In this document: piece by piece, positions 60,843 to 62,033 of the stretch
How the letters are laid out: each line of letters begins with the position of its first letter
Position numbering within the stretch: position 1 is the first letter of the stretch
Assembly (NCBI RefSeq): GCF_964355755.1
Contig: NC_092674.1
Coordinates: 2,609,001-2,673,000, forward strand
DNA length: 64,000 nt
Source of the DNA: Antedon mediterranea
Lineage: Eukaryota > Echinodermata > Crinoidea > Comatulida > Antedonidae
Direction of reading: 5' to 3'
The notes under the pieces: model-generated
What the model was told of the DNA's origin: nothing
The model's input: the letters and a program-made list of their open reading frames with translations, nothing else
Database searches by the model: none
Translations under genes and position numbers: made by a program

Positions 60843-60863
60843 CTTCAAAAAAAGCAAGAGTAT

Positions 60864-60942
60864 TTTAATGTATAATATATATATATATATATATATATAT
60901 ATATATATATATATATATATATATATATATATATATATATAT
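60864..60942. repeat. (TA)n microsatellite
   Basis: About 39 TA units, left of the first ribozyme-element unit. Confidence 0.95.
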
Positions 60943-61021
60943 AAATCAAAGAGCTGCATAGACAGGATATAGAAAAAAATCAAGATCAAATAAGTTAAAA
61001 CTGTCTCAATATAGATTTATT

Positions 61022-61062
61022 TTAACGACATGTTTCGGGCATAGCCCATCATCACGTGAAAA
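61022..61062 (-). ncRNA. mutated hammerhead motif
   Basis: Inverted sister of motif 1: GTGATGA replaces CTGATGA (core C3 changed to G), while stem II and GAAACATGTC remain. C3 pairs with G8 in the active fold, so it is predicted inactive. Confidence 0.7.
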
Positions 61063-61315
61063 GAATTGTAACAAAGGATAACATATATAAGTCACAAAAT
61101 TACATATTAAAACAAATCAGCCAATCAAAGATGTTAACAAACAAAAGGCATAGTTATAAAGGCACGCCTCCAAAAGCTATGGTGTACAAAGCAGGAATGG
61201 TTGCTTATAAAGCAGGAAATTTAAAACAAAGACAAAAGCTTCAAGTGTAAATAATTGTTAATATGTGAATGTCTCTGTCTTTGTGACTTATATATGTTAT
61301 CCTTTGTTACAATTC

Positions 61316-61358
61316 GTTTCACCTGATGATGGGCTATGCCCGAAACATGTCGTTAAAA
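61316..61358 (+). ncRNA. hammerhead ribozyme motif 1
   Basis: CTGATGA (61323-61329), stem II GGGC/GCCC with loop TAT, GAAA (61342-61345), then palindromic CATG and TC before the expected cleavage point after 61351. Stem I (TTTCAC against GTTAAA) has one mismatch. The palindromic stem III suits the dimeric form. An unpaired U sits at the base of stem II, so activity may be reduced. Confidence 0.7.
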
Positions 61359-61401
61359 TAAATCTATATTGAGGCAGTTTTAACTTATTTGATCTTGATT
61401 T

Positions 61402-61538
61402 TTTTATATATATATATATATATATATATATATATATATATATATATATATATATATATATATATATATATATATATATATATATATATATATATATATA
61501 TATATATATATATATATATATATATATATATATATATA
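61402..61538. repeat. (TA)n microsatellite, long
   Basis: About 65 TA units between the first and second ribozyme-element units. Confidence 0.97.
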
Positions 61539-61757
61539 TCCAAAGGCAATTTACTGAAAAAATGACAATGCTGTGGGTATATATATATGATGAAGGGCTG
61601 ATGAAGGGCTAGTGTTGCCCGAAAGCTCTGCTAACTTTTCTGGCTGTTTACTTTATCGTTTTGATTTAGCTTTTCGCTTTTTATTTTTGTATCTCCATTG
61701 AGATCCAGCCACTGATACCCACATCATTGTCATTTTTTTCAGTAATTTGCCTTTGGA
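61539..61757 (+). mobile_element. ribozyme-bearing hairpin unit
   Basis: CCAAAGGCAATTTACTGAAA... (61539-61580) faces its inverse at 61716-61751, about 40 bp of inverted ends around a hammerhead motif. Borders on TA tracts. Confidence 0.65.
61592..61640 (+). ncRNA. hammerhead ribozyme motif 2
   Basis: CTGATGA (61598-61604), stem II GGGC/GCCC with loop TAGTGTT, GAAA (61621-61624), stem III GC/GC, then TA before the expected cleavage after 61633. Stem I is weak, with wobble pairs and a mismatch. Confidence 0.65.
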
Positions 61758-61758
61758 T

Positions 61759-62033
61759 ATATATATCCAAAGGATATGTATGAAAGCACCTGTAAATGCT
61801 AATTCTACAAGTAAATGTGCTTATAAGCAACGTTGTAATTGATTGTTCTCATTATAGTCTCCTGATGAGTGAGTTGCACGACTCACGAAACAAGCCTGTA
61901 GAGACCAAACTGTAGTTTTTACTTCTTTTCCAGACTTAACGTATATTTTAGCTCTACTTTACCGTATTGAGCACTTTTTAGACGGTTACATTGAACCGAA
62001 CATTTATTTATATATATATATATATATATATAT
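61759..62033 (+). mobile_element. third ribozyme-bearing unit
   Basis: Unique ~250-bp segment between TA tracts containing hammerhead motif 3; no inverted ends seen and no coding frame. Confidence 0.5.
61857..61905 (+). ncRNA. hammerhead ribozyme motif 3, complete
   Basis: Stem I GTCTC (61857-61861) pairs with GAGAC (61901-61905); core CTGATGA 61862-61868; stem II GTGAGT/ACTCAC with loop TGCACG; GAAA 61887-61890; stem III CA/TG with loop AGCC; TA 61899-61900 before the cleavage point. All conserved core bases are present, type I layout. Confidence 0.85.

Follow-up and report, generated by a model that had tools for sequence, protein, structure and literature searches.

The interval 60860-62030 of the 64-kb window, the whole stretch of Antedon mediterranea DNA analysed here, very probably arose when Penelope-like retroelements of three kinds inserted into one (TA)n tract that adjoins a tRNA-like repeat, each leaving an end piece behind. 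The three units of the interval are end pieces of three different Penelope-like families (families 1 to 3), and they are short because they are the ends of longer elements. The initial annotation, which had seen three unrelated ribozyme-bearing units without reverse transcriptase (RT) in a TA tract, is as a whole partly supported.

Architecture of the interval

The setting of the insertions can be read from a paralogous segment, since pieces of 58000-63199 match positions 13418-16625 with 82-90% identity. The interval 60860-62030 corresponds to a TA tract of ~35 nt in the paralogue (Table 1), as had been proposed for the duplicate locus from the outset, and the 1.17-kb Penelope insert is present only in the segment 58000-63199. 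The counterpart of the adjoining tRNA-like repeat overlaps an Rfam tRNA match at 16498-16569. The three units show no blastn similarity among them and are parted by TA, as had likewise been annotated.

Unit 1 is an inverted repeat with 97% identity between its arms and a tail of ~30 nt on one arm only. The intact plus-strand core at 61323 belongs to the inverted arm and not to the element strand, where the first base of the core is changed at what we take to be position C3 in hammerhead numbering. The element-strand hammerhead of unit 1 is predicted to be inactive, in line with PAc of Anolis, in which C3G abolishes hammerhead activity (PMC11167929).

The surroundings contain further repeats. 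An 800-nt stretch at 59883-60678 has two more copies (27669-28468 and 35146-35945) that lie 7.5 kb apart and are each 97% identical to it, and the stretch and its copies contain CGGT/CTGT-rich short repeats. Immediately to the right of the insertions lies a direct repeat of ~653 nt (62199-62851 and 63348-64000, 96%), and the region 62199-64000 also holds a 37-nt inverted piece at 63094-63130.

Table 1. Features of the interval and of its insert-free counterpart (positions in the window)
Feature	Positions	Strand	Remarks
(TA)n tract, left of unit 1	60875-60943	.	Read from the sequence
Unit 1, end piece (3' region, hammerhead, tail), family 1	60944-61277	-	3' end at 60944; copies 97-99% over 60955-61277; L078 has an ORF upstream
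Element-strand hammerhead core of unit 1	61049-61055	-	GTGATGA, first base changed; predicted inactive
Inverted 5' arm of unit 1	61280-61411	+	97% complementary to 60967-61098; without the ~30-nt tail
Hammerhead-like motif 1	61323-61345	+	CTGATGA..GAAA, stem II 4 bp; in the inverted arm of unit 1
(TA)n tract between units 1 and 2	61405-61539	.	Read from the sequence
Inverted tail at the 5' end of unit 2	61540-61580	-	Pairs with 61715-61757
Unit 2, hammerhead and tail, family 2	61598-61759	+	Family homology from the hammerhead on; 3' end ..CCTTTGGAT(TA)n
Hammerhead-like motif 2	61598-61624	+	821 exact genome copies
Unit 3, end piece, family 3	61787-62006	+	3' end ..GAACCGAACATTTA(TA)n
Hammerhead-like motif 3	61862-61890	+	Stem II 7 bp, stem I GUCUC/GAGAC; 53 exact copies of the 23-nt core
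(TA)n, right flank	62007-62034	.	Presumably the tail of the adjacent tRNA-like repeat and the original landing pad
tRNA-like repeat (SINE-like), adjoins the insertions	62035-62204	-	Counterpart 16382-16557 at the insert-free site
Insert-free counterpart, TA tract of ~35 nt	16347-16382	.	Paralogous locus

Hammerhead-like motifs

The three CTGATGA...GAAA motifs with pairing stems, the starting point of the initial annotation, are confirmed as a sequence observation. A scan of both strands of the window for CTGATGA-N8..30-GAAA with a stem II of at least four pairs returned only these three, and in the three further matches to the pattern stem II has merely 1-2 pairs. The expectation from 3,000 dinucleotide shuffles of 60860-62033 (mean) was 0.001 motifs versus the three observed. 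The core CUGANGA/GAAA and a stem II are present in all three; stem I comprises five pairs in unit 3, six of seven in unit 1, and three in unit 2. By eye, the base of stem II is a non-pair in units 1 and 2, and stem III is limited to 2 bp or is palindromic only. Exact cores number 156, 821, and 53 genome-wide for families 1, 2, and 3, respectively, and the reversed control pattern gave 0 in each case.

Covariance models did not recover the motifs. The Rfam hammerhead families had no match in 60840-62060, even at E<=10, and none at the gathering threshold in the whole window; the lack of a covariance-model match is one of the outcomes that had been named beforehand as a refutation. Minimal Penelope hammerheads without helix III might be expected to fit the Rfam models poorly, and the motifs are at best minimal hammerhead variants. 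A genome-wide search with RF00163 yielded two weak matches (L009 and L010), the better with 29.4 bits versus a cut-off of 34, and since the same search gave matches below the cut-off in 11 of 14 control genomes, scores this low mean little alone. The best-scoring locus, L009, contains a fourth hammerhead recognizable by eye (1501-1546; and within 1351-1700), which occurs as a direct pair and has a stem I of 6 bp and the palindromic CGGTACCG. No hammerhead core was seen by eye in the 350 nt inspected of L010.

Longer copies and their ORFs

The units continue elsewhere in the genome into coding sequence, so the connection to Penelope-like elements that the initial annotation had drawn holds, while its description of the units as lacking RT does not: in longer copies, a GIY-YIG motif directly precedes the unit in each of the three families, and families 1 and 3 also have RT-like motifs. 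Upstream of unit 1, read on the minus strand, L078 has an ORF containing YIDD and LYIGETKRRLGDRFVEH; L068 and L069 carry a GIY-YIG motif upstream of unit 2; and the ORF that precedes unit 3 in L026, L044, and L015/L041 (one and the same place) contains YRDDG and VIYQAT..YIG. The unit-3 query had at least 42 genome matches (40 of 101 candidates scored). The upstream ORFs of family 3 (L012, L015, L019, L026, and L041-L045) have a common 42-residue end or a close variant of it; the longer copies contain the motif VIYQAT..YIG and YRDDGLAV, and several copies are interrupted by stops.

Profile searches detect the endonuclease in part of this material. The GIY-YIG profile PF01541 scored 23.2 bits in family 2 (L068; cut-off, 22.6) and 17.7 bits, i.e., under the cut-off, in family 1 (L078); it did not match family 3 (L042 and L044), in which VIY..YIG is visible by eye. 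The family proteins are related to each other in BLASTP comparisons (family 1 versus 2, E of 6e-24; family 1 versus 3, E of 6e-6), and it is by BLASTP that family 3 connects to families 1 and 2. RT-like motifs were recognized by eye as YIDD in family 1 and as YRDD and FDIVEFYPSI in family 3. Because searches for a reverse-transcriptase domain in Pfam, NCBIfam, and PDB sequences were negative, the assignment rests on these motifs and on mutual homology, and the proteins of families 1 and 3 are called RT-like here; family 2 was read for GIY-YIG. The partial proteins of all three families had no tblastn match in the window.

The longer copies differ in their arrangement. Unit 2 is present in two direct copies in L069, and inverted pseudo-LTR arms occur in units 1 and 2, L002, L138, and L152; two ends without a tail were found among the family-3 loci. 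No pLTR-ORF-pLTR arrangement was encountered, which counts against the favored explanation below. An ORF flanked on both sides by a hammerhead of its own family on the same strand was not found in L041-L046, and no own-family hammerhead is present in the 7.2 kb upstream in L041. An inverted family-2 end piece (4802-5030) lies immediately upstream of the family-3 ORF start (5061) in L041. Among the first 100 of 156 places, family-1 hammerheads face each other head to head at spacings of 56-133 nt in five pairs (C3:36205230-36205312, C1:7575324-7575446, C2:20225176-20225304, C4:8767391-8767550, and C6:9066677-9066788), and two such pairs, L138 and L152, are near-perfect palindromes with the center upstream of the motif. 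Family-2 tail-only mini-copies of ~45 nt, flanked by TA and devoid of a hammerhead, are present in L016 and L035.

Preference for (TA)n

The preference for TA is real in copies sampled across the genome, and the insertion preference suspected at first sight is borne out by the flanks of these copies. The 3' end abuts (TA)4+ in 38 of 42 cases in family 2 (36 loci, picked by similarity to the window), in 28 of 30 in family 3 (ends located in 29 of 30 loci), and in all four located ends of family 1 (5 loci, two of them overlapping), versus a background adjacency of 0.5-2% (201 of 10,350 and 57 of 12,000 positions). In a list-ordered set of family-2 copies from contig C1, TATATATA followed within 8 nt after 51 of 73 exact 3' ends, a count that is a weaker test of TA because the element's own TTTATA supplies part of the run. 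More generally, the TA on the 3' side could partly stem from this TTTATA end or from slippage. On the 5' side, (TA)4+ was present at most 30 nt before the break in 8 of 20 family-2 copies taken in list order.

Of 66 family-2 and family-3 loci, 16 have a tRNA-like repeat with a TA tail at most 500 nt from the core. Because of these loci and of the TA tract in the insert-free paralogue, the TA tract appears often to have been a pre-existing target, sometimes beside a tRNA-like repeat. The titles and abstracts within reach of the literature search, which covered few subscription papers and neither of the hammerhead papers of 2014 and 2017, included none on (TA)n targeting by Penelope-like elements, and priority is not claimed.

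Where short copies begin

The clustering of 5' ends at the ribozyme was unexpected. The cluster at the hammerhead edge is strong in family 2, less so in family 3, and weak in family 1. Family 2, with 821 exact cores and 1,057 exact 3' ends genome-wide, was sampled for 5' ends in list order on contig C1, as the similarity-picked sample was biased, its query having TA beside the motif. Among 20 copies chosen by core (one previously examined copy skipped), 19 have the start of homology 1-41 nt ahead of CTGATGA, and the remaining one has it 214 nt ahead; for L090, the measured value of 1 nt corresponds to at least 30 by eye.

The second sample comprised 29 of the first 31 listed 3' ends. The 5' break fell within -11..+3 of CTGATGA in 16 of them, with a mode at -7 (6 copies), for which a uniform spread over -60..+160 gives a P value of ~6e-12 when pairs with shared flanks are counted separately. 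Inspection by eye placed L081 at -22 and L107 at -1 and identified L108 as a tail-only copy; with the shared flanks of L084/L113, L085/L086, and L102/L114 also considered, the hand-corrected cluster is 15 of 26. A third set consisted of 39 core-less ends (19 + 20) from 61 among the first 100 listed, and is by selection depleted of copies with an intact motif. Its breaks lay upstream (12), at -11..+4 (10), at +5..+25 (2), at +26..+48 (9, two of which have a common flank), and further down (6).

In family 3, breaks at -3..-10 were found by eye in 9 of the 53 exact cores, of which 29 had been examined earlier, 5 were known to extend at least 46 nt upstream, and 19 were newly read. All nine are among the newly read copies, a set enriched for short ones, and the breaks of the copies examined earlier are scattered over ~50 to >1,500 nt. 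The short break values of L013 and L039 represented small insertions or deletions by eye and were excluded from the counts. The family-1 sample, i.e., the first 30 of 156 cores (8 known to be long and 22 newly read), contained three breaks at most 14 nt from the motif.

Proposed course of insertion and alternatives

On the favored explanation, each insertion would have left a pseudo-LTR with a minimal hammerhead, followed by a tail, with TA around it, and would therefore have provided fresh TA targets. The element RNA may start near the 5' edge of the hammerhead, which would then form its extreme 5' leader. The element's endonuclease would nick (TA)n, and reverse transcription would presumably begin internally, at the tail, which terminates in the target-like TTTATA; internal initiation of reverse transcription has been shown in vitro for PAc (PMC11167929). 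Copying onward to the RNA 5' end near the hammerhead would produce a short unit, and copying from a downstream pseudo-LTR a longer copy with the ORF. If reverse transcription reaches the RNA 5' end, many of the short units would be 5'-complete and not randomly truncated. Against this stand the usual 5' truncation of Penelope-like elements at insertion (PMC8969392), the breaks at +26..+48 and those further up and down, and the weakness of the cluster in family 1. A TATA box plus initiator just before the hammerhead was considered as a general promoter, and a scan with TATAWAWR found a TATA-like box at the right spacing as the best match in family 1 only. A transcription start at the hammerhead is for this reason putative, as is such a promoter.

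A more specific proposal, which we consider rather unlikely, is that the hammerhead is the extreme 5' end of the RNA, that the ends at +26..+48 derive from ribozyme-cleaved RNAs, and that the short units are complete products of internal initiation. Hammerhead mutants of PAc were unaltered in their insertion in vitro, and no PAc RNA reads started or ended at the cleavage site (PMC11167929); both results weigh against cleavage being required. A serious competing account of the clustering, possible if somewhat unlikely in our estimation, does without a transcription start at the motif and attributes the pile-up to the folded hammerhead, which would shield the RNA against 5'-to-3' decay or stop the polymerase. 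Such a protection would agree with the similar spacing between CTGATGA and the ends in families 2 and 3, whose upstream sequences are unrelated, with the rarity of breaks inside the motif (2/39), and with the second group behind it (9/39). An arrest of the RT alone could not place ends on the 5' side, however, since the 3' side of the fold is reached first, and minimum-energy folds of the excised stretches form the hammerhead only in part.

The remaining readings concern the nature of the units. Non-autonomous retrozymes, i.e., small ribozyme-flanked repeats that are copied via self-cleaved circular RNAs and are unrelated to RT genes, would account for the shortness of the units, their type-I-like hammerheads, and the direct pairs in L069 (unit 2) and L009 (the fourth hammerhead). 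Yet longer copies enter GIY-YIG/RT-like ORFs, most of the list-ordered family-2 copies begin at the 5' edge of the motif and not at the predicted cleavage site, and the interval has no Rfam hammerhead match. A retrozyme identity, which the initial annotation had brought into play, is very unlikely in our view, and it was dismissed on the attachment of the units to ORFs in longer copies. The prospect that the motifs are chance or decayed sequence without a catalytic past is slimmer still: the missing covariance-model match and the weak stems in units 1 and 2 would fit, but the excess over the shuffled expectation (3 versus 0.001), the one core common to three families whose units have no blastn similarity, and the 821, 156, and 53 exact copies versus 0 for each reversed control pattern do not. 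Finally, the inverted arms and TA flanks of units 1 and 2 recall MITE-like DNA transposons of a Tc1/mariner-like kind, which carry terminal inverted repeats and duplicate a TA target site. The inverted arm is missing in many copies, however, and a fixed 3' end combined with variable 5' breakpoints, together with GIY-YIG and RT-like motifs encoded upstream in longer copies, contradicts this reading and leaves it with a negligible probability.

Comparison with known elements

Penelope-like ends with minimal hammerheads, as found here, are ordinary for their class in most respects, and it is the strong TA preference and the clustering of 5' ends that stand out. Published Penelope-like elements have AT-rich targets, inverted pseudo-LTRs, tails, and minimal hammerheads (PMC11167929, PMC3846280, PMC7761336). 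PAc (PMC11167929) and the Penelope elements of Adineta vaga (PMC3846280) resemble the A. mediterranea families in the GIY-YIG motif at the C terminus, the minimal hammerhead, the AT-rich targets, the optional tail (31 bp in A. vaga), and the inverted 5' pseudo-LTR, with RT-like motifs here in families 1 and 3. A. mediterranea differs from these two in the (TA)n preference of three co-resident families and in its many solo end pieces with 5' ends clustered at the hammerhead edge. The PAc ORF starts inside the hammerhead, at stem II, and the PAc tail corresponds to the segment bounded by two internal sites at which reverse transcription starts (PMC11167929). Reverse transcription of PAc starts at an AC-rich loop that is not homologous to the target, whereas the 3' ends described here terminate in the target-like TTTATA (PMC11167929).

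The minimal type I hammerheads of Penelope elements (Cervera and de la Peña 2014; Lünse et al. 2017), as they are summarized in a review (PMC7761336), share the CTGATGA and GAAA cores, a short or absent helix III, and the multi-copy occurrence, and the palindromic CATG of family 1 also fits. Compared with that summary, the motifs here are distinguished by the blindness of the Rfam models and by the very short stem I of family 2. Metazoan non-LTR retrozymes likewise consist of short units with type I hammerheads, but they are ORF-less tandem repeats, in contrast to the ends of coding elements found here (PMC7229834, PMC7761336).

The association of a ribozyme with a repeated target also invites a comparison with terminons, which are endonuclease-deficient. 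Terminons carry a hammerhead beside a 3'-terminal repeat that is complementary to the target repeat; they are giant and attach to telomeric repeats, whereas the insertions described here lie in (TA)n away from telomeres (PMC12477314).

Implications

The current study exemplifies how a TA tract next to a short interspersed repeat can be a serial landing pad for one class of retroelements. How active the minimal hammerheads of Penelope-like elements are and what role they play was called "still a mystery" in a 2020 review (PMC7761336), and copies that start at the edge of the ribozyme bear on the purpose of the hammerhead. The genome, 354 Mb in 18 contigs, contains hundreds of short copies from which the two ends of the copied RNA can be mapped, and with ends at ribozyme edges and TTTATA beside (TA)n, the mapping of RNA 5' ends can test the question. 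If the ends at +26..+48 do derive from ribozyme-cleaved RNAs, the genome copies would be a record of processed versus unprocessed templates, and the ribozyme would gain a testable role.
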